This document shows positions 8,010 through 29,673 of a stretch of 47,933 bases of DNA, one piece after another (positions within the stretch are counted from its first letter, which is position 1; the number at the start of each line of letters is the position of its first letter). The notes beneath the pieces were generated by a model, which worked only from the letters and a program-made list of their open reading frames with translations, searched no databases and was not told the DNA's origin. Origin of the DNA: an uncultured Granulosicoccaceae bacterium (GTDB taxonomy: Bacteria; Pseudomonadota; Gammaproteobacteria; Granulosicoccales; Granulosicoccaceae); assembly GCA_937923745.1 (NCBI GenBank), contig CALDUO010000049.1, forward strand, positions 1 through 47,933. Reading direction: 5' to 3'. The translations under genes were made by a program, and so were the position numbers.

Positions 8010-8927
8010 TCAGGCCGCTATCGACGCTGCAGATGCAGCCCCGTAGTAATGGCGCAGCATCGCAGATGTGCGTAATTTTTGCGTGGCCATTTCATTGAGT
8101 TCCGCATTGTTTCGATGCGCCATATGACGGGATGCATCAATGTCCTGCGCCAGCTCGTCCACAGTGCTGAGCCGTGTCGTCACGTCTTCAGGCGTATTCG
8201 CAAACTCCAGTAACCGGTGTAATGACGCACCCGGTATCGTCAGCAGATCTTCATAGGTCAGTGTTAATTGCTGATGACTGTCGAGTGTCGCACAGCTCCT
8301 ATGGCACTGCTGTACATACTGCTCCCAAAGTTCAAATGCACGGTCATAGTCAAGACAACGTACCGATCGTGCCGGACTGTCAAACCGAAACTTTCGTCGT
8401 TGCTCACGAGTGACCAGACTCGCTGCGACATCGACACCGTGTCTGACTACATGAACGACTTTGGCCCGTGGAAACAGCCGCAGCCATAACGGTAGCGTGT
8501 AACTGGTACGGGGGTCTTTCCAGCCCCACGAAGTTGATTGAGCATTTCTCGGGTCGTGGCCAGGTTGACCGGCGACTGCCGCATCGCCGGCACTTTGCCC
8601 TACAAAATCATCCCCTGCGACATGCTCCCCGACAAAATGATCCCCGTAAAAATGATCCCGGAATTGGTCGAGGTCAAATTCGCTGCGCAGAGTGTCGATA
8701 ACGCCGTCGAGCAGCGCGGCATCGCGCATCATCCAGTCGACGGGCTGCGGGTTGTCCCACGACGCATGTGCCAGTGCAAAAATACGTTTATTGATGGCAA
8801 GGAAGCACTGTGACTCGCTATGCCCACCAGACAGATTTGCACCCATAAATACACCGGCATCACGAAGCTTTCGGGACACAAGACTGGTGCCCGATCGGTG
8901 CATTCCGACGATAATGAGAGGATACAT
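8010..8927 (-). CDS. Sulfotransferase family protein with pentapeptide-repeat insert
   Basis: 305 aa. P-loop IIVGMHRSGTSLVSRKL at the N-terminus binds the 5'-phosphosulfate of PAPS; PRAKVVHVVRHGVDVAASLV is the 3'-phosphate-binding strand-helix. Between them, roughly residues 88-115, is an unusual stretch of five-residue repeats (xGDHF-like: YGDHF, VGEHV, AGDDF) encoded by a 15-bp tandem array at 8601-8660. This insert is not a normal part of the fold and is probably a surface loop. It is the first gene of a two-gene operon with the TPR-sulfotransferase. The enzyme family is clear; the acceptor is unknown. Confidence 0.78.
   Translation of the reverse strand: MYPLIIVGMHRSGTSLVSRKLRDAGVFMGANLSGGHSESQCFLAINKRIFALAHASWDNPQPVDWMMRDAALLDGVIDTLRSEFDLDQFRDHFYGDHFVGEHVAGDDFVGQSAGDAAVAGQPGHDPRNAQSTSWGWKDPRTSYTLPLWLRLFPRAKVVHVVRHGVDVAASLVTREQRRKFRFDSPARSVRCLDYDRAFELWEQYVQQCHRSCATLDSHQQLTLTYEDLLTIPGASLHRLLEFANTPEDVTTRLSTVDELAQDIDASRHMAHRNNAELNEMATQKLRTSAMLRHYYGAASAASIAA
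8601..8660. repeat. 15-bp tandem repeat inside sulfotransferase gene, four units
   Basis: Plus-strand units: TACAAAATCATCCCC, TGCGACATGCTCCCC, GACAAAATGATCCCC, GTAAAAATGATCCCG. Period 15 keeps the sulfotransferase frame and yields pentapeptide repeats rich in Asp, His, Phe and Gly. Confidence 0.85.
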
Positions 8928-13853: not shown

Positions 13854-15068
13854 ATGGATGCTCTTGTCGTAGAATGCGACGAGTATTCGGGAAGACTGCA
13901 GCAACTCGCGCTATCAAAGTTCGGGTTCACGTGCTCGCTGGCAAAGGATTTCGCCAGCGCGAGCACAAGGATTCAACACGAATCATTTGATCTCGTGTCA
14001 ATCGATGCTGACTGCCCGGAACTCGATTACAAAAAGTTGTGTGACCTGATTAACGTGAATCAGTCAGCACACTACACGCACATCCTGATTTCATCGAAAT
14101 CATCGGTTACTGACCCCGAATTCGAGACACTGCAGGAACTGGCTACCGACACGCTACTCCGGCCGTTAACAGCGCTTGATCTTGAGGCACGTTTTCGTTC
14201 CGCAAAAAACTTCATTGAAACCGCCCGGCGTTTCTCTAATCAACACGAGCAATTAACCGCCGATCTTGATATTGCTGTGACTCGTAATGTGGAGCTGACC
14301 GCCGACTTACAACTGGCAGCCAAACTGCAACAACAGCTGTTACCCAGCGCCGCGCATTTTGGCACAGTAGAGGCCAGTGGTTACATCAACCCCGCGCAGT
14401 TCATTGCAGGTGATGCATTCGACTATTTTAAGCTCGATGAGAACATCTTCGCGTTTTATATTGTCGATGTCATGGGCCACGGTGCCGCATCAGCCATGAT
14501 TTCATTTTCGATTCATAGCCACCTGAATCCAAAACAGCACGGTCTCTGTCGACGGGTTTACGACAGCATGCCCACGCATGAGGCGGCTGTGGTCGCGACG
14601 GTTCGCGAACTTAACCGTGAATTTCAGGACGGTACTGACGAGTGTCGGTATTTTACGATGACGTACGGTCTGCTCGATTGCACCACCGGCACGCTGACAC
14701 TCTGTAATGCCGGACATCCGCCGGCAATCCACCATGTCAGCAAGACCAACGAATCACACTATTTGGGTGAAGGCGGCTTTCCGGTAGGTCTGTTTGAAGA
14801 AGCGACCTATCACGCCACCACCTGTCAGCTTGCCGAGAATGATCGTTTAGTGTTGTATTCTGACGGCGCGACCGAATGCGAATCACCCGAGGGCGAGCAA
14901 TTTGGAGAACACAGGTTGGTTAATACGATTGCGGAGACCTCGACGATGCCAGTGCACTCCTCGGTGAAGCTGATAGACGACTCACTGAATCAATGGAGCC
15001 AGAACTCAGCGTTTGATGACGACGTATCGTTGTTGTATCTCGCTTACGTCGGGCAGCAAGTGGCCTAA
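13854..15068 (+). CDS. Response regulator with PP2C (SpoIIE/RsbU-type) phosphatase
   Basis: 404 aa. The N-terminal receiver-like domain (residues 1-118) has the acidic patch VVECDE and a candidate phospho-acceptor Asp51 (VSIDADCP). A helical linker follows (about 125-165, with LAAKLQQQLLPS typical of RsbU-like proteins), then a SpoIIE-type Ser phosphatase with metal-binding AGDAFDYF, DVMGHGAAS, YSDGATE and FDDDVSLLYL. Such proteins dephosphorylate a STAS anti-anti-sigma factor. The likely targets here are the STAS protein encoded at 23625, with the kinase encoded at 15198 as its opponent. This resembles the REC and phosphatase parts of Vibrio SypE and Pseudomonas HsbR. Start ATG at 13854 with AAAGGA upstream. 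Confidence 0.87.
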   Translation: MDALVVECDEYSGRLQQLALSKFGFTCSLAKDFASASTRIQHESFDLVSIDADCPELDYKKLCDLINVNQSAHYTHILISSKSSVTDPEFETLQELATDTLLRPLTALDLEARFRSAKNFIETARRFSNQHEQLTADLDIAVTRNVELTADLQLAAKLQQQLLPSAAHFGTVEASGYINPAQFIAGDAFDYFKLDENIFAFYIVDVMGHGAASAMISFSIHSHLNPKQHGLCRRVYDSMPTHEAAVVATVRELNREFQDGTDECRYFTMTYGLLDCTTGTLTLCNAGHPPAIHHVSKTNESHYLGEGGFPVGLFEEATYHATTCQLAENDRLVLYSDGATECESPEGEQFGEHRLVNTIAETSTMPVHSSVKLIDDSLNQWSQNSAFDDDVSLLYLAYVGQQVA

Positions 15069-15118
15069 ACGCGCATTTAAGGCGCAAGGTTCATAAACAA
15101 TCACAAAGTGTGTCGTGC

Positions 15119-15166
15119 ATCAAGAAACCAGCCTGGTAAGGACCACCGGAGTGTACGTTTCTTGAT
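15119..15166. repeat. 10-bp inverted repeat between phosphatase and kinase genes
   Basis: Perfect arms ATCAAGAAAC (15119-15128) and GTTTCTTGAT (15157-15166) with a 28-nt spacer, lying 31 nt before the kinase start. Without a T tract it is not a simple terminator; it could be an mRNA stem or a regulator site. Confidence 0.6.
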
Positions 15167-15197
15167 TGTCTGTGACCACAGTTTGCAAGGAAGCAAT

Positions 15198-15737
15198 ATG
15201 TATTCTGTCAATGGAAGTTACTCCATCGAAAACAGGAATTCGTATACCCCAATGCAACCAGAGAAACAGCACCCCGAGTTTGCAGGGGCACCGTCTCAGA
15301 CACTGATGCTGACCGATAGCATTGAAAGCAGACGGGAGAATATTGCGCGCGTTGAAGCCGCTCTTGAGGCCATCTGCACCGATGCAAACATTGCGAAAAA
15401 GCGCGTTTTTTTTATTACGCTCGCAACCTCAGAGGCACTGTGTAATATTATTGAGCACGGTTATGCGTTTGAAACCGGCCACCAGATTGACATAGCAGTG
15501 TATCGCACACCTAACAACACACTCGAAGTGGCACTCAGCGATAACGCCCGTGAAATGCCACCGCCACTTGTCACCAAACTTACCAGTCGGCATTGCCAAA
15601 TGCCGGATACTGATACCTCGCTGGAACAACTGCCGGAATCCAACTGGGGCACCAATCTCATTGGACACACGACCTCTGAGGTCCGTTACGACCGCACCGA
15701 CGGCAAAAATCATCTGACCCTGTGTTTTACGCTGTAA
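15198..15737 (+). CDS. RsbW/SpoIIAB-like anti-sigma kinase (HATPase)
   Basis: 179 aa from the ATG at 15198, chosen because AAGGAA sits six bases upstream; the longer frame from 15108 runs through an inverted repeat. After ~50 less ordered residues comes a GHKL ATPase domain: N-box SEALCNIIEHGY, a modified G1 box VALSDNA (instead of DxGxG), and a G2-like WGTNLIGHTTSEV. These kinases phosphorylate STAS antagonists and/or bind sigma factors. With the upstream PP2C and the STAS protein at 23625 it completes a partner-switching set next to the polysaccharide genes. No sigma factor or other downstream target is encoded in the window. The altered G1 box makes ATP binding slightly uncertain. Confidence 0.8.
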   Translation: MYSVNGSYSIENRNSYTPMQPEKQHPEFAGAPSQTLMLTDSIESRRENIARVEAALEAICTDANIAKKRVFFITLATSEALCNIIEHGYAFETGHQIDIAVYRTPNNTLEVALSDNAREMPPPLVTKLTSRHCQMPDTDTSLEQLPESNWGTNLIGHTTSEVRYDRTDGKNHLTLCFTL

Positions 15738-15875
15738 GGTAACGCCACGCACTGTTAAGCGTCATGGCAGATCCACATCGTGGATTGCTATCGTTTATTG
15801 CAACAGTGAAGAAGCGGCCTGCCCCGACTGTGCTCTGTGTGCCAACAGAGCACGGTCCCACGCGGCATCGAAATT

Positions 15876-15943
15876 ACAGGGCAGCACATCGCACAGGTCG
15901 GTACATCGCGCAGGGCAGCACATCACACAGGGCAGCACATCGC
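15876..15943. repeat. 17-bp tandem repeat, four units
   Basis: Units ACAGGGCAGCACATCGC, ACAGGTCGGTACATCGC, GCAGGGCAGCACATCAC, ACAGGGCAGCACATCGC; the first and last are identical. The non-triplet period supports a non-coding location. Confidence 0.92.
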
Positions 15944-15998
15944 AGTCGTCACGTGAACGCCTGTTCTATACAGACTCGAACCATCACGTACCTGAATT

Positions 15999-16034
15999 GC
16001 AACCCATGCCGCAACCCATGCTGCCACCTATGCA
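15999..16034. repeat. 12-bp tandem repeat, three units
   Basis: Units GCAACCCATGCC, GCAACCCATGCT, GCCACCTATGCA, only 55 bp from the 17-bp array but unrelated to it in sequence. Confidence 0.8.
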
Positions 16035-16312
16035 GTCTCATTAGGCGCTAGCCAAATCATCAAAAAGATCACCTGTCAGTTAGCAATCCTTATAACCGAC
16101 CCAAATAACCAGCCTGGCTAACCAATCCAGAACTGTGGCGCATTAACACCTGTAAAATCGAAGGGTCATAAAGGTAAGGTCGAGATAACCACCCTCCTAT
16201 TGAAGGGGCTACCCTGAGATTGCGGATACAGTCAGAAATCTTGCCTGCTGTTTTGTGTTTGCCGCCCTACGCGTAACGCTGGTGCAGACGCACACTTCAT
16301 GCATCAGGCAGG

Positions 16313-17899
16313 CTAATGAGCCTTTGCGATATTACCGTCTGAGTTCATTGAGTCTGACACTGATGGCGCTGTATTGGCGGCACGGCTTTGCCATGCCCGC
16401 GCACAGAAGAGCGCTTTGGTCGCATCGACCAGCACCTGCAACGATCGTTTCCAGTCACGCGTGCTACTGAATACCGTATCTGATATCAACCGTTCTTCCA
16501 GTGCGGCGTCTGCACCCAGCACCAGCTGAGTCGGGCCGAGCAATCCGGAAGGCACTGTGTCACACACCCGTTGCCAGCGTTCGTCACGCCCCACTAATTC
16601 TGCAGGCTGATACAGTGACACCCCCACCAACCGTATACGACCGGTCACGACCGATAGAAGTCGTGGTAAGTTATCAAGCACCGGCACCCCGGTGACAAAC
16701 TGATAGGCTCTAAACGGTGATTTCGCATCGGTGCCAGTCTGACGCGCATTCCCCTGCAGCACCACTGATGTACAGGGTTTACCACGTGTTCGTTTCAGTG
16801 ACAGCACAACCGCAACCGGCCACAAGGGTAACGAAGCCAACAACAGCGCAAGACCACCAAGACTGTGCACCAACCCACCCAAATGCACATCGTAAAAACT
16901 ATGCCCCAGATCGGCAAGCAGGAAGTTGTCAGAGAGTTCAAGCACGATATTGCTGTCAACTCTGATTAGCAGGTTTTTCCACACGATAGAATTACGGATA
17001 TTCAGATACTCGCCAACATAGGTGTTGTCCAGAATGACCGAGTCTGTAATTGACGTATGCCGGTCCACCACAACCCGGTCGCTGATGACCACAGTACCGC
17101 TCAGCGATGCGCGCGAATTGACTTGCGAGTGCTGCCCTGCGACCACACTACCGTACTTGATGCTGCGCGGTGACACACTGGTGTACTGCCCGGTTATGAG
17201 CCCCAGCGCGCGCTGCCGACCCCGAAAGGTCAGATGCTGACAACCACCGGCAACCAGCACCATATTCGCTGCATGGTAGCCCTGCAGTGTAGTCACATCC
17301 AACACCTTCACGTCACCCAAAGGGTGGGAGTGCGTAATTGGCTGAACATCACTGGCTTGCATGTCCTCAGCTACGTGACGTTCTGCGGCCTGATGTTCGG
17401 TCACTCCTGGTTCACTGATCAGCGTGAATGGTTTTAACGCGTACAAACCGGTATGGCCAGACTCACACTGCGCCACTGTCTTTGCTGCATCATACGCCAA
17501 CGTTTGTCGATAAAAATCACTGACAGAGAAATCGCGTATCTTCGCGCAGTCAAGCACCAGCACCGGTTTACCACTGTTTGCCCACACCCTCCGTATCAGC
17601 TCGTCGCCATCGGCAAACCCTGACCGGGTAATCACCTCCAACTGTATACCCCATCGTGTGCCTTCACCCACAAACTGCTTTAACTCTGCCACGAACGGCG
17701 CTGCTATGACCGTGACTTTGGCAGGGTTCAGCGCGGCAACCGATTCGATAACGTGCTCAATAATCTTTTTGCCACCGATTGTCAGCAGTGGCAGGCAGGT
17801 TATGTCGGACAGCGGCTTTAAACCCTCACCATCCTGATCAGCAATAATAATGACGTCGGGTATCTCGTTATCTGACAACGGCATTGGTTGGTTGTCCAT
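16313..17899 (-). CDS. Multi-module protein: degenerate nucleotidyltransferase, left-handed beta-helix, degenerate sugar transferase
   Basis: 528 aa. Residues ~14-200 align with sugar-phosphate nucleotidyltransferases, but the GGxGTRLxP signature reads ADQDGEGLKPLS and the following PKPLLP reads CLPLLT, so key residues are missing. Residues ~225-330 show hexapeptide-like repeats of a left-handed beta-helix (SGTVVISDRVVV, TSITDSVILDN, GEYLNIRNSIVW). A hydrophobic segment (345-368) follows, then a C-terminal region resembling bacterial sugar transferases (PGT), with VLDNLPRLLSVVTG where active enzymes have the IDELPQL type; Asp is kept but Glu is Asn, and PRP reads VSL. It is probably a non-catalytic or altered-function membrane protein of polysaccharide assembly. 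It starts 2 nt after the upstream gene's stop, so the two are co-translated. Confidence 0.65.
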   Translation of the reverse strand: MDNQPMPLSDNEIPDVIIIADQDGEGLKPLSDITCLPLLTIGGKKIIEHVIESVAALNPAKVTVIAAPFVAELKQFVGEGTRWGIQLEVITRSGFADGDELIRRVWANSGKPVLVLDCAKIRDFSVSDFYRQTLAYDAAKTVAQCESGHTGLYALKPFTLISEPGVTEHQAAERHVAEDMQASDVQPITHSHPLGDVKVLDVTTLQGYHAANMVLVAGGCQHLTFRGRQRALGLITGQYTSVSPRSIKYGSVVAGQHSQVNSRASLSGTVVISDRVVVDRHTSITDSVILDNTYVGEYLNIRNSIVWKNLLIRVDSNIVLELSDNFLLADLGHSFYDVHLGGLVHSLGGLALLLASLPLWPVAVVLSLKRTRGKPCTSVVLQGNARQTGTDAKSPFRAYQFVTGVPVLDNLPRLLSVVTGRIRLVGVSLYQPAELVGRDERWQRVCDTVPSGLLGPTQLVLGADAALEERLISDTVFSSTRDWKRSLQVLVDATKALFCARAWQSRAANTAPSVSDSMNSDGNIAKAH

Positions 17900-17901
17900 C
17901 G

Positions 17902-20037
17902 TTAATAGGCTCCTTTGCCCATCAGTACCGCAGGAATGGTTTTCAGTAGAATTTTGATATCCTGAAAAAAGCTCTGCGACTCTATATATTCAACATCCAA
18001 CTGTACCTGTTGATCAAACGGTATCTCAGAACGCCCGGACACCTGCCAGATACACGTGATGCCCGGCACAACCTCCAACCGACGCCGATCTTCAATGCTG
18101 TATTCATTCACTTCAGACGGTAATGGCGGGCGCGGTCCTACCAACGACATATCACCGCACAATACATTGAGCAATTGCGGTAACTCGTCAATGGAATACT
18201 TACGAATAAATGATCCGACGCGCGTGATTCTGGGATCTGATTTCATCTTAAAAATCACCCCGCCCGCCATTTCGTTGGTTTTCAGAAGCTCGGCTTTTCG
18301 TGCCTCCGCATCGACATACATGGATCGAAACTTATACATTTTGAAAAATGCACCCCAGCGTCCAACACGCTGTTGGCTGAAAAATACAGGACCGGGTGAT
18401 TCCAGTTTGATCGCGGCGACTACGACAAGACAGACCGGTGACAACAGCAAAAGCGCCACAGACGCACCGACGATATCGGTCAGGCGTTTGCAGACATAGG
18501 TCAGCTTAACCAGTACATTCCACGCCAGATGCCTGAGTCGGTATCGGATGCCAAACGTTTTTCGTGCGCCTTCGCCCTTGGCAAATCGGCGAACGACACG
18601 AGACACAGAATTATTCCGCGCTTGTCTGAACACCCGAAATAAAAACACCGGATTTCCAAGAATGTACCGACGCCACATACGCGATGGCTCCTGCATCAGA
18701 CGCCAAACCCACTCCAGCCCAACATCTTGCATCCACCGTGGTGATCTTGCTATGCGTCCTGAATAAAAATCAAGCAAGCCGCCTACACCCATCTGTACAT
18801 GCGGTGCCAAACGATCATGATGCCGGTCGATCCATTGCTCTTGCTTGGGCACACCAAATGCGACCAGTAAAATATCGGCACCTGACGCATTGATATCGTC
18901 GATCACACCGTCTTCTTCATCAGCTTGAAAAAAACCGTCGCGGGTTCCTTTGAATTCAAGACCGGGATAGCGATCAACCATGGTTGCAGCGGCAGCCTCG
19001 GCAACACCGGGTTGACCACCCAGTAAATAGATCGACCACTGGTTTTTTACGCAATGCTCACACAATAGCGGGAACAGATCCGTACCGTTCACATTCGCTT
19101 TCATCTGAACACCCAGCATACGACTCCCGATGAGTAACCCGATGCCATCGGGCAACACAAAACCCTGTTCTTCCAGGATGCGATTGTACTCGGGGTTGAT
19201 AGTCGCTTCGTTAAGACACGCAGGATTAACAAATGCAACACGCGTTTTAGCACGGGTATTAATAGCCGTGCCAATGCGCTCCAACGCACCCTGCATGGTT
19301 GTGTTCAACACGTTCACGCCCAAAATCGTAAACTGATCCGGACGAGACAATGCACCGTCAGCAGACAATTGCCGGGCAACGACGTAGCGCGCCATTATAC
19401 CGAGAGATTCTGCCAGAGTATGATCAGGATACGCAGCAGGTGTCACCACCTGTTGATAATCGGTGCCGGTCATTCGCCTGAGTTGATGCACCGATATCAG
19501 ACCCGGCTTAACTCGATACAGCCCATGGTTCGGGTTATGGCGGGTTGAATCACGCAACAACACAGAAGGTCCGACAAACGATAAATCACCGGCAATAATA
19601 TTCAGCAACATGGCAAGCCGTCTACCGCGCCACGTACCGGCAAAGCGGTATAGCTCAAAGCTTCTGGCATCTGCCGAATCTGCGATGCGCGTTGCGCGCC
19701 TACATGGCGCTAACGCCGTCTGCCGGTCAAATACCCGCCCGGTTTGCGCGCGGGCCACTGCGGCTCGCAGTACGATAATGGGTAGCGCAGCCAGCACAAT
19801 CAGGGCAGCAATGACTCGATCTGCAATCGCCCGTGCCCGGTTATGTTCTGGCAACGGCGCAACCCTGTCTGATGTTTCCTGAACACCACGGTTATCATTT
19901 GGTTTATAAAAATGTTCAGCATTGGCAGGCTGCCCGTCAACAATGACGACAGACTCAATCAGCCTCTGCTGTCCGGTTGCCACAACACTGACACTATTGC
20001 CCGTGTCGTGCTCTACTGCCACTTTTTGAATATTCAT
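17902..20037 (-). CDS. Triple-module sugar transferase: degenerate PGT, WecG/TagA GT26, canonical PGT
   Basis: 711 aa. Residues ~62-200: a PGT-like module (AGDLSFVGP, GLYRVKPGLISV) in which the catalytic Asp-Glu is replaced by Arg-Arg (GRRLAMLLN) and PRP by PSV. Residues ~235-460: WecG/TagA/CpsF glycosyltransferase (GT26), with FVNPACLNEA, VLPDGIGLLIGSRMLG, NGTDLFPLL, YLLGGQPGV and VAFGVPKQEQW. Residues ~510-711: an intact polyprenyl-phosphate sugar-1-phosphate transferase with a hydrophobic segment, KMYKFRSM, IDELPQLLNVLCGD, SLVGPRPPLP and PGITCIWQVSGR. The C-terminal module would load the first sugar-phosphate onto undecaprenyl phosphate and the GT26 module could add the next sugar, so one polypeptide may perform the first two steps of repeat-unit synthesis at the inner membrane. 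Confidence 0.82.
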   Translation of the reverse strand: MNIQKVAVEHDTGNSVSVVATGQQRLIESVVIVDGQPANAEHFYKPNDNRGVQETSDRVAPLPEHNRARAIADRVIAALIVLAALPIIVLRAAVARAQTGRVFDRQTALAPCRRATRIADSADARSFELYRFAGTWRGRRLAMLLNIIAGDLSFVGPSVLLRDSTRHNPNHGLYRVKPGLISVHQLRRMTGTDYQQVVTPAAYPDHTLAESLGIMARYVVARQLSADGALSRPDQFTILGVNVLNTTMQGALERIGTAINTRAKTRVAFVNPACLNEATINPEYNRILEEQGFVLPDGIGLLIGSRMLGVQMKANVNGTDLFPLLCEHCVKNQWSIYLLGGQPGVAEAAAATMVDRYPGLEFKGTRDGFFQADEEDGVIDDINASGADILLVAFGVPKQEQWIDRHHDRLAPHVQMGVGGLLDFYSGRIARSPRWMQDVGLEWVWRLMQEPSRMWRRYILGNPVFLFRVFRQARNNSVSRVVRRFAKGEGARKTFGIRYRLRHLAWNVLVKLTYVCKRLTDIVGASVALLLLSPVCLVVVAAIKLESPGPVFFSQQRVGRWGAFFKMYKFRSMYVDAEARKAELLKTNEMAGGVIFKMKSDPRITRVGSFIRKYSIDELPQLLNVLCGDMSLVGPRPPLPSEVNEYSIEDRRRLEVVPGITCIWQVSGRSEIPFDQQVQLDVEYIESQSFFQDIKILLKTIPAVLMGKGAY

Positions 20038-20120: not shown

Positions 20121-20969
20121 TTAGCGATAACCGTAACGGTTTATATACCGGCTTAACGTGAGCTTTACCAAGAGCTTTTGCAACAATCCAAGCCGCCCTT
20201 TTTTCGCCCGCGCAAACCCTTCTGGCTCTACCACCTTATGGCCATTTTTGATCGCGAATTCTCCGTATTTTTTCAGCTCAAATTCGGTATTAAGCATGGT
20301 GTGTCGAACCGCATCAGAGCTATCGAGACCAACAAAATCCAGCACTTGCCGAAGCACTGTCTCGGTCTCTTTTTTAAGGTCTTCATACCGAATCAACAGT
20401 ATTGTCTCAGGATTGGCCAACGCATAATCGCGTGTGCCTTTACTGACAAAATAGCTGTATTGGCGAATCGCTTTGATGATATTGCCCGGCGCCCAGTTAC
20501 TGCCCCAGGACGCCGAGGCACTTAACATAGATTCGATGACATCAGCCGGGCTGCGGATCATATAGATAATTTTGGCGTCAGGAAGAATACGACTGATATG
20601 GTCCATGTTACGAATATGATCAGGTGTTTTCTCCAAAAATATCGGGTAACGATGATATTCATCTGCCCGCGACAACACGGAGTGCACCACGCCTTCCAGC
20701 ATGGTTAAAAACTCAACTTCCGTTTGGTAGGCTGGTAATCCGATACCACCACGACCATCCTGAAACGACAGCATATGATCCCAAGATTCGACCATCGGAC
20801 CCAAAAAATGATTAAACAAATGTGACTCTTGCGCTGTCCCTATATCCGGGTGATTGCCCAGCAGTGACTGCAACCACGTTGTGCCACTGCGTGGCGGTCC
20901 CACCAAAAACAGAAGCTGAGGTTTGTCTTTGCGTGAGTGCGTTGTTTTTCTGCCGTTACTATCAGTCAT
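20121..20969 (-). CDS. Sulfotransferase of the polysaccharide operon
   Basis: 282 aa from the ATG at 20969, chosen because it falls just after the upstream gene's stop (20972); the frame can be extended to 21041 but that would overlap the GT2 gene by 70 bp. PAPS-binding P-loop LFLVGPPRSGTTWLQSLL, then EKTPDHI and the 3'-phosphate region PDAKIIYMIRSPADVIESML. A cytosolic PAPS-dependent sulfotransferase family member. Its place between glycosyltransferase and sugar-transferase genes suggests that it sulfates a sugar of the repeat unit on its lipid carrier before flipping; this is inference from context. Confidence 0.85.
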   Translation of the reverse strand: MTDSNGRKTTHSRKDKPQLLFLVGPPRSGTTWLQSLLGNHPDIGTAQESHLFNHFLGPMVESWDHMLSFQDGRGGIGLPAYQTEVEFLTMLEGVVHSVLSRADEYHRYPIFLEKTPDHIRNMDHISRILPDAKIIYMIRSPADVIESMLSASASWGSNWAPGNIIKAIRQYSYFVSKGTRDYALANPETILLIRYEDLKKETETVLRQVLDFVGLDSSDAVRHTMLNTEFELKKYGEFAIKNGHKVVEPEGFARAKKGRLGLLQKLLVKLTLSRYINRYGYR

Positions 20970-20971
20970 AA

Positions 20972-22024
20972 CTACTGCCTGCTCGTAACCGGCGACGGGC
21001 TGACTATCTCTGCGGCATTGATGCGCAACCGCTGTATCCACCCCGTCATTTTCACAGCCGCAGGCTCAATCAGACTGTACACCGGTGTCGGCAACACAAA
21101 GAGCAGATACGCAGCACCCAGCGTGACCAGAGTACGAGCCGGCTCTCTGATGAGTATTTGTGGCTTACAGGCAATAGACTGGTGGCACATCGACACCGCC
21201 ATCTTGCCGTCTTTCAGACGAATGGCCTGTCGTGCCAGATAACGCAACTGAAATGCGCGTGCCAGACCGCCCCACTGTTGAATCAGCTCAGGTGCATAAC
21301 CGCGCGTTTTTTCAACGACGGCCTCCCAGGTGGCCAATTGCTTGGGAATGTTGGCAGACAGGCCGCCACCATTGAGCCGATAGAGCGTCAACGGCTCAGA
21401 CAGTCCCGCTATTTTCCAGTCGGTAGTGACCGCGATTCGAATCCAGCATTCAATATCTTCGGACTGACGAAATTGATCATCGAAATAGAATTTTTCGATG
21501 TCGCCATAGAGGTTATCCTCAAACGCTATCTCGTCGAACACCGCGCGTCGCACTACCGGTGCAGACCCGTTACCAATGGGGTTTCGGCACAAGTAATATC
21601 CGGGATCAACCGGATCCAGCGATGGCATCTGATACGCATTGAGTGGCGTGCCATGCTCATCGATAAACGCAGAGCGCGAGAAGCTGATACCCACATCGGG
21701 GTTATTGTCGAGGTGTTTCACATGCAGTGAGAGCTTGTCAGGCGCCCAGAGATCATCGGAGTCGAGCAGTGCGATATAGTCGCCTGTTGCTTCACGAATA
21801 CCCGTATTACGCGCACCTGCCAACCCGCGGTTCTCGCTATGTTGCACAATACGCAGCCGTGAATCATCGAACGCTCGACAGATGTTGATACTGTTATCCG
21901 GTGACAGATCGTCGACAACTATTAGTTCAAATTCGGTGAACGTTTGTGCTAACACTGACTCTATGGCAGCACCCACAAACCGCTCGACACCATAGACGGG
22001 CATGACTACCGAGACCTTTGGCAT
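20972..22024 (-). CDS. Family 2 glycosyltransferase (polysaccharide operon)
   Basis: 350 aa. The GT-A domain in the first ~230 residues: SVVMPVYGVERFV, VVDDLSPDNS, LLDSDDLWAPDK (DxD-type metal site), and SEDIECWIRIA. A C-terminal helical extension has a hydrophobic segment near residues 300-325 (TLGAAYLLFVLPTPVYSL), which may peripherally anchor it in the inner membrane. It adds one sugar to the lipid-linked repeat unit; sugar unknown. It lies between the flippase (2-nt gap) and the sulfotransferase, clearly in one leftward operon. Confidence 0.87.
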   Translation of the reverse strand: MPKVSVVMPVYGVERFVGAAIESVLAQTFTEFELIVVDDLSPDNSINICRAFDDSRLRIVQHSENRGLAGARNTGIREATGDYIALLDSDDLWAPDKLSLHVKHLDNNPDVGISFSRSAFIDEHGTPLNAYQMPSLDPVDPGYYLCRNPIGNGSAPVVRRAVFDEIAFEDNLYGDIEKFYFDDQFRQSEDIECWIRIAVTTDWKIAGLSEPLTLYRLNGGGLSANIPKQLATWEAVVEKTRGYAPELIQQWGGLARAFQLRYLARQAIRLKDGKMAVSMCHQSIACKPQILIREPARTLVTLGAAYLLFVLPTPVYSLIEPAAVKMTGWIQRLRINAAEIVSPSPVTSRQ

Positions 22025-22026
22025 TT

Positions 22027-23319
22027 CTACACTCCTTTGTAGACCACATCATCTTCACTGAAAACTTCAGCATCGATTTTGGGTTTGATCTGAATAAAAT
22101 AATAAACAGGCACCATAAACACCTGCACCAACAACACGGCTGCAGCGACACCTACAATACCGAAGCTCAGTCCAAGCCCTATCGCAGACACAAACACAAG
22201 CGTAAACAAACAATGCCACTGTAGGTCATCCTGCGGACGACCAATGGCTCGTAAAAATTGTGACCCCGCCTCAGAGAAAGCGATGGGAATACCCGAAAGA
22301 CACACGAGCATCAGTATGGGCACAGCACCATCTTCCACCCAACGAGCGCCAAAGACCCACGGCACATAAATGGGTGCCAGTGCTGCCTGCGCCAGTATTA
22401 GCGGACACATAGACAGCGCAAGCGCTTTGAGACCAAACCGAAACCGCTTTTTGAGCTGCTCTTTGTCATCGGTTGCGCACAGGTAAGGAAACAACGCGTT
22501 ATTCATACCATTGATCAGACCGCGTGTGATACCAAGACCCGCGTTATAGGCAAAATAGTAGATACCCAGCGATGTCACACCCAAAAAATAACCGACGAGT
22601 ATGTAGTCGATATTGGCACGAAACGCACCCAATAGATCAACGCCCAAAACACGTTTGGTATAGGTCAGAATATCGCCTGCAGCCGAAAACGTTGGTCGGG
22701 ATGGGGCTTTCCATGTCACCGCTTTTCGGTGGGTCATTATCCACAGCGGTATCACCAGCACCTTGGGTAATACCAATGCCCACATACCAAAACCTGCCAG
22801 CGCGAACAACACGGTCAATACGCCATCGCCTATCGCTTGTCGCACTTCCGAGCGTGCGACGACATTGAGCCTGTTAGCCCGAATATTCAAAGCGGCATGC
22901 ACCATGGCGGTCGGTAACATGAGATACGACAATGCCAATACACAAACGGGCAGAATCAGGGCATCGTTGTCGTACCAGAGCGCCATTGGAAACGCAATCA
23001 GACACTGAACCACAAAGAGCGTACCGCCAATTCCCCAATTGAGGTAATAGGCCGTATTGGCAATAGTCGAGAGTTCTTTCTCTGTTGCCTGAACAATTCG
23101 GCTGGCCGTACCTGCACGTGCAAACACGTGCGCAAACTCATTTACCACCAACACGATAGCCGCAAGACCATAGTGCTCAGGCGTCAGGATACGGGCGACA
23201 ACAATGGTCGACAGGAGTCGGGAAATTCGAGTAAGGAACTGAGCCATACCCAACCAGCTCATATTCGTGAGTAGTTGGTTGCCGAGTAACCTCTGCATCA
23301 AACGAGAAGCCATTTTCAT
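22027..23319 (-). CDS. Wzx-like polysaccharide flippase (MOP superfamily)
   Basis: 430 aa of mostly hydrophobic sequence with about 12 predicted membrane helices. The N-terminal pattern LTNMSWLGMAQFLTRISRLL and VVARILTPEHYGLAAIV is typical of the polysaccharide-transport (PST) branch of the MOP family, as is DYILVGYFLGVTSLGIYYFAYN. It would move undecaprenyl-linked repeat units across the inner membrane. It is the first gene of the leftward arm, divergent from the STAS-export operon across a 305-bp control region. Substrate specificity (for example for sulfated units) cannot be judged. Confidence 0.88.
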   Translation of the reverse strand: MKMASRLMQRLLGNQLLTNMSWLGMAQFLTRISRLLSTIVVARILTPEHYGLAAIVLVVNEFAHVFARAGTASRIVQATEKELSTIANTAYYLNWGIGGTLFVVQCLIAFPMALWYDNDALILPVCVLALSYLMLPTAMVHAALNIRANRLNVVARSEVRQAIGDGVLTVLFALAGFGMWALVLPKVLVIPLWIMTHRKAVTWKAPSRPTFSAAGDILTYTKRVLGVDLLGAFRANIDYILVGYFLGVTSLGIYYFAYNAGLGITRGLINGMNNALFPYLCATDDKEQLKKRFRFGLKALALSMCPLILAQAALAPIYVPWVFGARWVEDGAVPILMLVCLSGIPIAFSEAGSQFLRAIGRPQDDLQWHCLFTLVFVSAIGLGLSFGIVGVAAAVLLVQVFMVPVYYFIQIKPKIDAEVFSEDDVVYKGV

Positions 23320-23998: not shown

Positions 23999-25747
23999 GT
24001 GACAAGACTTCTGATCATTGCGTTGTGTGTCGTCACCATGACGCTGAGCGGCTGTCGTGCTATGTACACTCACGACCTTGATGCCTCGCCTTATCACAAC
24101 GAGTGGGGGCGAGACTTCTATGCACGTGAAAAAGAAGCAAGCGTTAACCTGATCAACAGCTATTCCTATCGGTATCGCTCAGGCGATCTCATTGGTCATT
24201 GCAGACAGGTGCCAGAAACCTTTTTAAAAAAGTCGGCCTCAGGTACTGTCAAGGCACTGGAACGCACACCTGGTGATCTGATCGTGGATACGGTCTCAAT
24301 CTCTGCCACGCCGTATTTTCAAACAGATAAATCCACACTGACGCAACAGGGAACTCAGGCGCTTGATGATTTGCTCACACGCATTGGCCGCTACGATGAT
24401 GTGAAACTGATTGCCATCACAGGCTTTACCGACAGCCGACATACCGTCGCATATAACCAGAGTCTGTCGGAGCGACGTTCTCAAACCGTATTTGAATACC
24501 TCCAACACACGCACCCAAAGGTCGAACGACTGACAAAATCACTGGGGGAACTGGCTCCGGTTGCAACCAATGACACCGCCCCCGGCCGCCAATTAAACCG
24601 ACACGTGGAAGTTCAGGTTATCGCTAAAGACGTTAATCTGAAAAATGCTGATAACACACTGTGTCAAAAAGAGCTGCGAGGTTATCAAAAAACTTACTTC
24701 GAGACGTCTCCGGCAGATGGCATTGCCGAACGACGTGTGGCATCACTGACCACCCCTATTCCTGCCGAAATGCCACTGTCCGTCGGCGATAGAGTGTCGG
24801 TTCGTATTCCGGAGGGTGAGGAGTTTTCGGGTATTTTTGAAATTTCAATCGGTGGCACGCTGCAGATACCTCATGTCGGCGGGTTGCAGGTGAACGGCTT
24901 TACACCGGATAACATCCAGACACTGGTAGCCGATCAGATGGTCGAAAAAGAACTGTTCCGCGCCCACACTATCTCCGTTAGTGTCACCGTACAACAATGG
25001 GCACCGATTGATGTTTTCGTCAGTGGTGCGACGTTTGCGCCAGGTCGCGTCACGATCAATCATCAACGCCCCGATCAGCTTAATTTTAAACAGACACAGG
25101 TCTCCGGCGACGGTGGACGTGACCGACTGCTGACTACTGCGCTTCAGGCCGCCGGTGGTATCAGACCCGATGCCGATATCCGTAATATTCAGGTGATACG
25201 CGGCGGGCGTACGTTTGAGGTTGATCTCAGCGGCGTGTTTGACGGACGCACTGCCAGCGATTTTGCATTGGCGTCAGGTGATCAGGTTGTGGTGCCAAGT
25301 GTTGGCTTTTTTCAAAAAGACCTGGTCCGGCCTACACAAATGACACCTCCGGGTATTCGCGTCTTTATGTCTAACCTGACCACTCCGGCCAGCTCCAACT
25401 CACTGTCGGCGATTGGTAACGATGCGACGAAAGTGCCTTATGGCACGCGATTTTTGCGTGGCGTTGTCTCGTCAAACTGCGTCGGTGGTACCCAGATGAC
25501 CAACGCTGCAAGACGTGCTGTGTTAATCAGCACCAATCCGCTCACCGGTAAAACAGAAGTCATTGAACGCTCGATACAACAGCTGGTCAGTGACCCGGAT
25601 CGTGATGATATCAACCCGTTTTTGATGCCCAACGACGGTATTGCCTGTTACGACTCAAGCGTGACCAACATGCGCGATATCGCCAAGACTTTTTCTGACT
25701 TGCTGAATCCGTTTGTCAGCTACGCTGACATCATTCGTGCCCGCTAG
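23999..25747 (+). CDS. OmpA-Wza fusion: outer-membrane polysaccharide export lipoprotein
   Basis: 582 aa, GTG start. Lipobox LSGC (Cys19) predicts a lipoprotein. Residues ~99-209 are an OmpA-like peptidoglycan-binding domain (GFTDSRHTVAYNQSLSERR, and GRQLNRHVEVQV with the conserved Asp and Arg). Residues ~258-330 are a Poly_export/Wza domain (LSVGDRVSVRIPEGEEF, GGTLQIPHVGGLQVNG), then an SLBB-like domain (PIDVFVSGATFAPGRV, LQAAGGIRPDADI) and a ~150-residue tail. Wza proteins form the outer-membrane exit channel for capsule/EPS; OmpA domains tether proteins to the cell wall. In syp loci these are two genes (sypB OmpA-like, sypC Wza-like); here they are one reading frame with no stop or frameshift. 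Confidence 0.87.
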   Translation: MTRLLIIALCVVTMTLSGCRAMYTHDLDASPYHNEWGRDFYAREKEASVNLINSYSYRYRSGDLIGHCRQVPETFLKKSASGTVKALERTPGDLIVDTVSISATPYFQTDKSTLTQQGTQALDDLLTRIGRYDDVKLIAITGFTDSRHTVAYNQSLSERRSQTVFEYLQHTHPKVERLTKSLGELAPVATNDTAPGRQLNRHVEVQVIAKDVNLKNADNTLCQKELRGYQKTYFETSPADGIAERRVASLTTPIPAEMPLSVGDRVSVRIPEGEEFSGIFEISIGGTLQIPHVGGLQVNGFTPDNIQTLVADQMVEKELFRAHTISVSVTVQQWAPIDVFVSGATFAPGRVTINHQRPDQLNFKQTQVSGDGGRDRLLTTALQAAGGIRPDADIRNIQVIRGGRTFEVDLSGVFDGRTASDFALASGDQVVVPSVGFFQKDLVRPTQMTPPGIRVFMSNLTTPASSNSLSAIGNDATKVPYGTRFLRGVVSSNCVGGTQMTNAARRAVLISTNPLTGKTEVIERSIQQLVSDPDRDDINPFLMPNDGIACYDSSVTNMRDIAKTFSDLLNPFVSYADIIRAR

Positions 25748-25769
25748 TTGACACCGACAGAACAAGGGC

Positions 25770-27146
25770 ATGTTAAAAAACAACAAGGACGACCGGAATC
25801 GAAAGCGTAATCGGCGTATTGCCCGATACCTGATTCTGTACATACTGAATCTCGGCCTGATCTGGACACCGATCATGGGTTATGTGATGTATGCCCCGGT
25901 GACTTACAAAAGCACCTGGAGCCTGATACTGCCAGGCTCCGGTACCGGCTCCAACGTGAACCTTGATAACCTCGGTCAGGCCAGCACGTCAGTGGCGTCT
26001 GCCTATGCCAGCACCAGCGTTGATCCCAAGGTGAATTACAAGGCCATCGCGATGAGCAATCCCGTGATAAAACGGGCAGCGGAATATGCCGCGATTACAC
26101 CCTCTGAATTTGGCAAACCAGTCATCAAGCTGGTGGATCAAACGGCCATTATCGAATTCACGCATGTTGCCAATTCAGCAGAATTGGCCCATGCAAAATC
26201 CAGCAGCCTGCTCGATGCATTTACCGAGGAGCTGGATAACCTTCGGGATAACGAAGTGCAAACCCGACGTGACGGGAGTTTGTCGAGTATGTCTGTGTAT
26301 CGCGAAAATGTCAGACTCGCACAGGACGCTCTGCTTGATTTTAAAACCAATTCCAATCTGGTCTCGGCCGAGCAGTTCAACACGCTCTCGTCGAATATCG
26401 AAGATATCCTGAGACAACAGACCGAAGCCAAAGTGGAAGCGTCAAGCCTCGACGCCCAACTCAATGAATTTTTAAATTCACTGAATATAGGTGTCAGACA
26501 GGCAGTGGACGCCATCAGGCTGCAAAACGATCCCATCTTTCAGTCGCATCTTTTGGCACTGTCCGAGGTCAATAAGGAACTCGTTGACAACATGGCTATC
26601 TGGGGTAATAAGCACCCCAAAGTCCGTATGGTACGGGCGCGTGAGCTCGAATCACGCCAAGCGTTACTCAGGCGCGCCCGTGAATTCACCACCATTAATG
26701 ATATGGCGGACATTGGTGCACTGGTGGTCAATGGCGGCAGTGAATCCGCCACACTGTACCGCACGGTTATCGAACTGTTGGCCGCTAAAACTGCCGCCAA
26801 AACCCGCATTAATACCTACGATGAACAAATCACGGAGCTTGAAAAAAGGCTCAAAGAGCACGCATTGAGCACCGCGAAGCTCGAAGACCTGGAACGATCA
26901 CATCAAGTCGCTACCGCAGTCTTTGTCTCCGCGCTTGCCAAAACCGACCTCGGTCGTTCAGATATTTATGCGTCTTATCCGATGACGCAGATTCTTGTCG
27001 CACCCACGTTGCCTCAGGAACCTGAAAAACTATTTAAGGTATTTGCCATCCTCGGTGCGTTCGCCGGGTCTCTCTTTATTCTCGCAGCGTTGTTTGTGAT
27101 GTGGAAACGAAGTCAATTAATCCACAGAATTTTGAAGAAAAACTAG
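25770..27146 (+). CDS. Wzz-type chain-length determinant (no kinase domain)
   Basis: 458 aa. Two membrane segments, at about residues 20-43 (LILYILNLGLIWTPIMGYVM) and 430-450 (FAILGAFAGSLFILAALFVM), flank a long periplasmic part with predicted coiled coils (about 180-300 and 340-390). The pre-TM2 Pro-rich stretch APTLPQEPEKL is typical of Wzz/Wzc proteins. There is no Walker A or Tyr-rich tail, so it lacks a BY-kinase; the kinase may be separate or absent. It would regulate polymer length and connect polymerisation with the OmpA-Wza exit channel made by the previous gene. The next gene overlaps its 3' end by 46 bp. Confidence 0.85.
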   Translation: MLKNNKDDRNRKRNRRIARYLILYILNLGLIWTPIMGYVMYAPVTYKSTWSLILPGSGTGSNVNLDNLGQASTSVASAYASTSVDPKVNYKAIAMSNPVIKRAAEYAAITPSEFGKPVIKLVDQTAIIEFTHVANSAELAHAKSSSLLDAFTEELDNLRDNEVQTRRDGSLSSMSVYRENVRLAQDALLDFKTNSNLVSAEQFNTLSSNIEDILRQQTEAKVEASSLDAQLNEFLNSLNIGVRQAVDAIRLQNDPIFQSHLLALSEVNKELVDNMAIWGNKHPKVRMVRARELESRQALLRRAREFTTINDMADIGALVVNGGSESATLYRTVIELLAAKTAAKTRINTYDEQITELEKRLKEHALSTAKLEDLERSHQVATAVFVSALAKTDLGRSDIYASYPMTQILVAPTLPQEPEKLFKVFAILGAFAGSLFILAALFVMWKRSQLIHRILKKN

Positions 27147-28372
27147 TCTGGTATTCCATTACCGGCACCTATGTTTTTTACCTGTTCGGTGCGCTCGTCG
27201 TGGTCGCACCGGTTATCGCGTGGGTGTTGTTTTTCTATGGCCTCAAGAAACTGTCCATGGAATACATTGAAGGCGATGAATACGCCTCTTTCGGTCTTCC
27301 GTTGTCAGTTCTGGTTTGGTTTATCGGTATGTTTATGATGCTGGTGGCCCTGATCCTTGGGCACATCAATCACGGCATCGGTCTTGGCGGTATCATAAAA
27401 TCGATGATCGGATGGGCCAAAGGATGGGCCTTGCTCGCGATCTTTCCCTTTATTGGCTGTCTCGATATCCGACCGGCACTGATCTATCGCGCCGCATGCG
27501 TTGTCTGTTTCCATACGTTACTGCTGTTACCCCTGTTTATTGGAGCCGCCGTGGTCGGACTACCACAGTCAATTTATGTCTCTCCATTGAAAGTGCTGGG
27601 TCCTGGTCCCGAATTCTATTCACTGAACCTTTACGAAATTGATCCAGAGGGAGCACCGCGCTGGCGCTTCTTTACGCCGTGGGCCCCGGCGATTGGTTTT
27701 GTGGCCAACATCTATTTTATTTTTGCGATGATGGAAAAAGAATGGAAATGGAAACTCGCCGGTATCTCGGGGTGCCTGGTCATGATTCTGCTTTCCAAGT
27801 CGAGATTGGCGCTGGTGGCGATTGTCACGGTCTGGGGAATCACTTGGTTTTTGTCGAATTTTAGGAAACCGTTCGTACTTTACCTGTGCGGATTGGGTTC
27901 AGCCCTAATAGGATGTGTTGCGCTGCCGATAGCTGCTGCAATGGAACAGGCTATGGCGACCTTCAAAGCTGCGAGAGCAGATTCGTCGAGGGTCCGGTCT
28001 GCGCTGGGACGCATTGCTGTAGACAGATGGTCGCGTGAAGCTCCGATATTTGGACACGGAGTGGTAGAACGCGGACCCCACCTCGTGGAATACATGCCTA
28101 TCGGCTCTCACCATTCGTGGTTTGGGTTGTTGTTTGTTAAGGGCATCGTCGGCTTTATATCCCTCGCAGTACCGATGATCGTGAGCTTTTTAACCCTGTG
28201 GTACCGCTCACACGATCACGAACCCGCAAAGGTCGGTATAGCAGTATTGATGATTCTATTTTTATATACCTTTGGTGAGAATCTTGAGATTCTCGCTTAT
28301 TTGGTATGGCCAGGATTGCTATTTTTAGGCATGGGAGTTAATGCCAGATGTCAACGATCACACGATCTGTAA
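27101..28372 (+). CDS. Wzy polymerase / O-antigen-ligase-like membrane protein
   Basis: 423 aa from a GTG at 27101 that overlaps the Wzz gene; a later start is possible since no strong ribosome site is visible. About 10-11 membrane helices surround a large loop. The WaaL/Wzy-family region includes LSKSRLALVAIVTVWG, the loop RVRSALGRIAVDRWSREAPIFGHG (split here: RVRSALGRIAV, REAPIFGHGV) and GSHHSWFGLLFVKG, whose His residues are typical of the ligase/polymerase family. It probably polymerises repeat units in the periplasm. Counterpart of sypL-type genes. Polymerase versus ligase cannot be decided by sequence alone; polymerase is favoured because no other Wzy candidate is encoded here. Confidence 0.78.
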   Translation: METKSINPQNFEEKLVWYSITGTYVFYLFGALVVVAPVIAWVLFFYGLKKLSMEYIEGDEYASFGLPLSVLVWFIGMFMMLVALILGHINHGIGLGGIIKSMIGWAKGWALLAIFPFIGCLDIRPALIYRAACVVCFHTLLLLPLFIGAAVVGLPQSIYVSPLKVLGPGPEFYSLNLYEIDPEGAPRWRFFTPWAPAIGFVANIYFIFAMMEKEWKWKLAGISGCLVMILLSKSRLALVAIVTVWGITWFLSNFRKPFVLYLCGLGSALIGCVALPIAAAMEQAMATFKAARADSSRVRSALGRIAVDRWSREAPIFGHGVVERGPHLVEYMPIGSHHSWFGLLFVKGIVGFISLAVPMIVSFLTLWYRSHDHEPAKVGIAVLMILFLYTFGENLEILAYLVWPGLLFLGMGVNARCQRSHDL

Positions 28373-29673
28373 ACGGACAAACAGAACAACACTCTTTTCA
28401 ACGCGTTGATCCTTTATTGTGGGTACCACGGTATTGGCCCTCGGTGGGTGGCGCTGAATTACACGCACGCAGACTGGCGCAAGAGCTCTCCACCAAAGCC
28501 GACGTGGGCGTTATCACACACTGTGATCAGACGGGCGTAGATCTTACTATCGCGACCAGCGAGGCCTGTCAGAACACCACACTGGATGGCGCGGTCACCC
28601 GCTACATGACCGGCATCTCAGGCGTACGGGGCAGTGCCTTACAGAAAATGGCAAAAAAAGCCGTCGTCAAACAGGAAGAGAAAACCTTGTTTGGTCGCTG
28701 CTTCAAGAGCTTCTACGCACCTCAGGTCAAGTCCATAGCTGCACGTTATGGCGTAATTCATTATATCCATAACGGGTTTGTCGAGAGTGCCGAGCTCGCA
28801 GCCGATACCGCCGAAAGTCTTGACCTGCCGTTTGTTATCACACCCCTCATCCACACCAACGTGGCGCCGGATACCGGCTGGGACTCTGCGCGGTTCAGAA
28901 GACTCTACGAGCGTGCCAACGCCATCATTACGTTGACCAAACACGAAAAAGACTGGCTGATCGAACGCGACGTTCGCGCCAACAAAATACACATTGCACC
29001 ATATGGTCCACTGGTGAGCAAAGAGGGTGATGGCAAACGATTTCGTGCGCAACAAGGGTTAGACAACGAACCTGTTGTTCTGTTTTTGTCTCGTGTCACC
29101 CGCGAGAAAGGTTGTCATGCATTACTGGATGCAGCAGGTTCGATATGGGCAGAGCACCCCGACACCCGCATTGTGTTTGTAGGACCTCAAGATAATGAGG
29201 CACGCAGCGCGCTGGAGGCCTGTGAAGACAAACGCATCATCACCATCGAGACAATCACCGAAAACGGCAAGTCTGATGCACTGGCCGCCTGTGATCTTAT
29301 GTGTATGCCGTCGCAGGGAGAAAGCCTGGGCGTGCCGTACCTCGAAGCATGGCATTTCTCTAAACCTGTTGTGGCGTTGGATATACCGGTGTTACGGGAA
29401 GTTATCACAGATGAAGTCAACGGGCTGCTGACACAACCCGACTCCGAGAGTATCGCAACGGCTGTTAACCGACTGATCGCAAGCCCTGCCAGGCGCGAGG
29501 TCATGGGAGACGCTGGACGACAGGAGGTGCTGATGCGCTACAGTTGGGAGAAACTCGGCTCACATCTGCAAATGATTTACGAAAAAGTGTTGCCGCTGGA
29601 GAAACAGGCTGGCATCAGCCCGGCTGCCTCAAGACAGAACTTTGCGGTCAGACCCATCATCGACGTTCGTTAG
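28348..29673 (+). CDS. Family 4 glycosyltransferase (GT-B)
   Basis: 441 aa. N-terminal acceptor domain with VPRYWPSVGGAELHARRLAQ; C-terminal GT4 domain with VVLFLSRVTREKGCHALLDA, MPSQGESLGVPYLEAW (the E-x7-E motif) and KPVVALDIPVLREV. A retaining transferase using a nucleotide sugar, acting at the cytoplasmic face of the inner membrane. It overlaps the preceding gene by 25 bp and ends the rightward export operon. Donor sugar unknown. Confidence 0.88.
   Translation: MSTITRSVNGQTEQHSFQRVDPLLWVPRYWPSVGGAELHARRLAQELSTKADVGVITHCDQTGVDLTIATSEACQNTTLDGAVTRYMTGISGVRGSALQKMAKKAVVKQEEKTLFGRCFKSFYAPQVKSIAARYGVIHYIHNGFVESAELAADTAESLDLPFVITPLIHTNVAPDTGWDSARFRRLYERANAIITLTKHEKDWLIERDVRANKIHIAPYGPLVSKEGDGKRFRAQQGLDNEPVVLFLSRVTREKGCHALLDAAGSIWAEHPDTRIVFVGPQDNEARSALEACEDKRIITIETITENGKSDALAACDLMCMPSQGESLGVPYLEAWHFSKPVVALDIPVLREVITDEVNGLLTQPDSESIATAVNRLIASPARREVMGDAGRQEVLMRYSWEKLGSHLQMIYEKVLPLEKQAGISPAASRQNFAVRPIIDVR

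Follow-up and report, generated by a model that had tools for sequence, protein, structure and literature searches.

What could a protein contribute to polysaccharide synthesis when it is assembled from enzymes that appear to be inactivated? The question is raised by a reverse-strand gene in the window, a stretch of 47,933 nucleotides from an uncultured Granulosicoccaceae bacterium. The length, coordinates and open frame given for its 528-residue product in the original prediction were confirmed: there is no internal stop, the ATG lies 2 bp past the stop codon of an upstream gene for a 711-residue protein, an AAAGGAG sequence precedes it within the 3′ end of that gene, and codon-position GC is similar to that of the neighbouring genes. 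We favour, with a probability of roughly 0.6, the reading that this gene encodes a conserved pseudoenzyme, anchored to the membrane, which acts as a non-catalytic subunit of a PGT–WecG complex that starts a Wzx/Wzy-type exopolysaccharide (EPS). The features on which the argument draws are listed in Table 1.

Table 1. Position, strand and basis of assignment of the features discussed, in coordinates of the whole window.
Feature	Position	Strand	Basis
528-residue pseudoenzyme: nucleotidyltransferase-like (~aa 15–200), left-handed beta-helix (~228–320), PGT-like (~326–505), variable tail	16313..17899	−	sequence and predicted structure
Nucleotidyltransferase-like domain (~aa 15–200) without GxGxR, Lys and NGD Asp	17299..17857	−	sequence alignment
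Left-handed beta-helix, LbH (~aa 228–320), module common to every member	16940..17218	−	sequence and full-length model
PGT-like domain (from aa 326 to the end), which retains the Pro-broken membrane helix but has lost the catalytic segment	16313..16924	−	alignment and model
711-residue partner with three parts: a degenerate PGT at the N-terminus, a WecG/TagA glycosyltransferase and, at the C-terminus, an active PGT with the Asp-Glu dyad	17902..20037	−	sequence
N-terminal PGT domain (aa 68–225) of the partner, degenerate and homologous to the PGT-like domain of the pseudoenzyme	19363..19836	−	profile comparison
Same-strand upstream genes: sulfotransferase, GT2, Wzx-type flippase	20121..23319	−	sequence
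Divergent EPS genes: OmpA-OPX, Wzc-like, Wzy-like, GT4	23999..29673	+	sequence
Response regulator–SpoIIE phosphatase and HATPase_c_2 (RsbW-like), convergent neighbours	13854..15737	+	sequence

The proposed fusion of three domains is upheld by both sequence and predicted structure. NCBIfam and Pfam matches to the window's copy are weak (nucleotidyltransferases at residues 16–117, LbH at ~201–321, Bac_transf at 408–497); relatives score above the Pfam thresholds of both NTP_transferase and Bac_transf, and this establishes where the two end modules come from. A full-length model (25 sequences, pLDDT 78, predicted as a monomer) shows a GMPP/AGPase/UGPase fold over residues ~10–330, with PDB matches to UGPase tlr0611, GMPP, the GMPPA/GMPPB complex, AGPase and eIF2B, and Foldseek E values of 1e-17 to 1e-10 against UGPase, GMPP, AGPase and MurU. 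Modelled alone (pLDDT 74.5), the C-terminal part matches PglC (8e37, 8g1n) and WbaP (8t53) at probability 1.00 and TM ~0.6; these four chains are its only structure matches with E < 0.001. A helix of the membrane type, interrupted at a conserved Leu-Pro, is retained in the model. The protein therefore has its N-terminal fold in common with MurU, GMPP and UGPase (PF00483, whose Pfam cut-off relatives exceed), and its C-terminal fold and Pro-broken helix in common with the monotopic PGTs PglC and WbaP (PF02397).

What separates it from both groups is the loss of their catalytic residues. Unlike MurU, GMPP and UGPase, all members have lost the GxGxR motif and its Lys: the set is kept in 0 of 43 (39 distinct full-length and four short sequences). 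The predicted absence of GGxGTRL and the following Lys is borne out in the window's copy, where the G, G, R and K positions are occupied by Q, G, G and L, and the phosphate-loop Arg is replaced by Glu in 29 of the 39 full-length members. At the site of the second Mg-binding Asp, towards the end of the domain, the alignment is unreliable, its reference sequences having no LbH. The predicted Asp-Asn in place of the Asp-Glu of PGTs was likewise found by alignment, and the loss is larger than had been thought. The PGT-like part lacks some 60 residues of the catalytic region, as well as the KFR and GPRP residues of PglC and WbaP; the Asp-Glu dyad, present in 26/26 active PGTs compared, occurs in no full-length member, and the Glu in no homologue. 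The KFR Lys has become Glu in 32/39 and the dyad Asp has become Arg in 30/39 full-length members. All 39 distinct full-length homologues thus lack the same catalytic residues, and the substitutes are often conserved themselves. The claim that every enzymatic module is damaged fits two of the three modules, because the LbH need never have been enzymatic.

Homologues were found by genome searches in the same family of organisms and in its order, class and phylum; in the class and phylum the best four candidates per genome were scored for the pseudoenzyme family, so that absences there are soft. A contig scan built on five closer relatives gave 25 named loci from Competibacteraceae, Thiocapsa, Methylococcus capsulatus Texas, Parabeggiatoa, Thiomargarita and other Thiotrichaceae, while the same scan with the window protein alone as query returned no relative. 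Carriers include M. capsulatus and Thiocapsa roseopersicina. One Competibacteraceae-like copy stands in a locus labelled as a Phycisphaerales MAG (JACSSB010000192.1) and is probably binning contamination. The PGT-like part is missing in L008, L039–L041, L092 and L094–L096, and is therefore not required everywhere; L008 and L039–L041, together with relatives whose nucleotidyltransferase part is shortened (L005–L007, L134), identify the LbH as the constant core. The short pseudoenzymes of L092 and L094–L096 nevertheless lie directly 3′ of WecG and PGT genes.

The relatives evolve under purifying selection. Whole-gene dN/dS (Nei–Gojobori) is 0.115–0.218 in 11 close pairs, and every domain stays below 0.29 in the same pairs; the adjoining active PGT gene has values of 0.008–0.125. 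These figures describe relatives only, since the window's lineage is too divergent, its nearest homologues being ~35% identical. The selection for a non-catalytic role that had been postulated is supported by this low dN/dS in relatives together with the conserved motif losses.

The degenerate N-terminal PGT domain of the 711-residue WecG protein is conserved in the relatives examined; profile comparison relates it to the PGT-like part of the pseudoenzyme (E 1.4e-12) and links both to active PGTs. Of the three PGT domains encoded by a full-length locus, two are thus dead and one is active. Where enough upstream DNA is available, the pseudoenzyme gene nearly always lies immediately 3′ of genes for WecG and an active PGT, with PGT-to-pseudoenzyme gaps mostly of −14 to 31 bp; in Competibacteraceae WecG, PGT and pseudoenzyme are three separate proteins. 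The clear exceptions are the Thiotrichaceae loci L084 and L085, as well as L083, which have the pseudoenzyme on its own. Across the order, pseudoenzyme and pseudoPGT-WecG occur in the same 11 of 48 genomes, a match that would have a chance of ~4e-11 among independent genomes; these genomes are related, however, and shared ancestry accounts for part of it. In the class, where the best 10 candidates per genome were scored for the WecG N-terminal domain, all eight genomes with a full pseudoPGT-WecG also carry the pseudoenzyme; three further genomes have the pseudoenzyme only, at contig ends or in fragmentary form. In two genomes (G211 and G317) the two genes are on different contigs, with no WecG or PGT gene in the DNA around the pseudoenzyme, yet they co-occur, and there co-occurrence is not a by-product of linkage. 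Synteny and co-occurrence with pseudoPGT-WecG and PGT genes favour the suggested partnership with the neighbouring PGT.

Taken together, the shared loss of catalytic residues, the purifying selection, the folds, the helix that anchors the protein and its dependence on partners suggest a non-catalytic subunit of a PGT–WecG initiation complex, which is the most likely role for a dead protein that selection maintains across many Gammaproteobacteria, always in genomes with the same partner enzymes. We infer that it binds the PGT or WecG protein and may affect their activity. The PGT-like domain and the LbH would bind the active PGT, the degenerate PGT domain of the WecG protein, or both; sugar-1-phosphate transfer to undecaprenyl phosphate and transfer of the second sugar would then occur in one assembly, which the pseudoenzyme may hold together as a scaffold or switch allosterically. 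Precedents are GMPPA, discussed below, the WbaP dimer (PMC10942596) and, in Myxococcus xanthus, the non-catalytic EpsW, which activates the initiating PGT EpsZ (PMC12802240), although EpsW is a single-domain response regulator of a different fold. A bolder and less probable elaboration is an initiation complex with three PGT folds, of which only one is active: at the membrane, the degenerate domains of WecG and of the pseudoenzyme would associate with the active PGT and act as a gate for the first committed step, perhaps governed by the adjacent phosphatase/kinase switch and H-NOX sensor.

How bacteria control the PGT step, for which undecaprenyl phosphate and sugar nucleotides are taken from shared supplies, is not settled (PMC12802240); if confirmed, a pseudo-subunit dedicated to this step and widely conserved would make its control directly testable. 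No description of a pseudoenzyme PGT, of an NTase–PGT fusion or of the family of the 528-residue protein was found in the open-access literature. Because relatives pass nucleotidyltransferase and sugar transferase cut-offs in Pfam, automatic annotation likely lists these pseudoenzymes as enzymes.

Among other readings, the one that survives best, unlikely as we consider it, is a sugar-nucleotide sensor, in which the dead nucleotidyltransferase pocket would bind a UDP- or GDP-sugar and regulate the PGT by feedback, much as GMPPB is regulated by GMPPA, an inhibitor that binds GDP-mannose and has no catalytic activity (PMC11228364). Like the pseudo-subunits of AGPase and eIF2B, GMPPA joins a nucleotidyltransferase to an LbH, has lost catalysis and is kept as a regulatory or structural subunit. 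The pseudoenzyme has the same fold as GMPPA/GMPPB and a GMPPA-like conserved loss of catalytic residues under selection, and the Mg-binding NGD Asp and a Glu are kept in 32 and 28 of 39 members, the Asp also in the Competibacteraceae type. However, the window's copy has lost this Asp (Ala in its place), the Glu and the phosphate loop, and the nucleotidyltransferase part is ~30–40 residues shorter in its closer relatives L005–L007 and L134. In contrast to GMPPA, the pseudoenzyme also has no evident active nucleotidyltransferase paralogue as partner, has a PGT-like membrane domain in addition, and is found alongside PGT and WecG. A GMPPA-like role is possible in relatives with the NGD Asp and less likely for the window's copy; of the three functions first suggested (scaffold, sensor, allosteric partner), it is the sensor that is weakened here, nearly all nucleotide-pocket residues tested being lost.

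It is rather improbable that the protein is a regulatory receiver, coupling the response-regulator/SpoIIE phosphatase and RsbW-like kinase, with H-NOX in three relatives, to activity of the initiating PGT. Such a phosphatase and kinase lie beside the pseudoenzyme gene in seven of 12 related genomes examined, where 7/12 strong SpoIIE genes are within ~3 kb of it. In the Methylococcus-type locus L097, pseudoenzyme, phosphatase and kinase genes follow one another on one strand with gaps of 0 and 4 bp, and M. capsulatus Texas (L082) has the same order. A haem-NO-binding (H-NOX) gene adjoins the SpoIIE/HATPase pair in L086 (7290–7841), L087 (8298–8852) and L088 (12337–12873), which suggests gas sensing near EPS control. 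Against this reading, four members (G014, G024, G030 and G782) have no strong SpoIIE gene, and SpoIIE/RsbW-type modules usually act on sigma factors. A phosphatase/kinase switch is likewise tied to a polysaccharide locus in the SypA/SypE partner switching of Vibrio fischeri syp (PMC4517449), a likeness of role; unlike there, no STAS gene was identified next to the pseudoenzyme gene, and positions 15738–16312 hold only unconvincing small open reading frames.

We judge it very unlikely that the protein is a neofunctionalised enzyme whose altered sites or LbH run another reaction, such as acyl transfer. The substitute residues are conserved rather than random, and LbH folds do include acyltransferases. 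However, a search of the LbH columns for a His present in most members found none, the only one being His209 in the linker before the LbH, and an acyltransferase was dropped on this ground; the PGT-like part, moreover, has no catalytic segment. A decaying pseudogene of a former bifunctional enzyme, as the many motif losses and the weak Pfam scores of the window's own copy might indicate, is hardly credible given the intact frame, the synteny, the same losses in all homologues and the purifying selection in relatives (whole-gene dN/dS 0.12–0.22), and shared losses with low dN/dS lead us to reject decay for the family.

The locus in which we place the non-catalytic subunit has features of its own. 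The gene at 23999–25747 encodes an OmpA domain fused to a polysaccharide export (OPX/SLBB) protein, an arrangement also seen in several relatives. Two sulfotransferases are encoded in the window, one within the EPS gene run (20121–21041) and the other at 8010–8927, and they hint at a sulfated exopolysaccharide.
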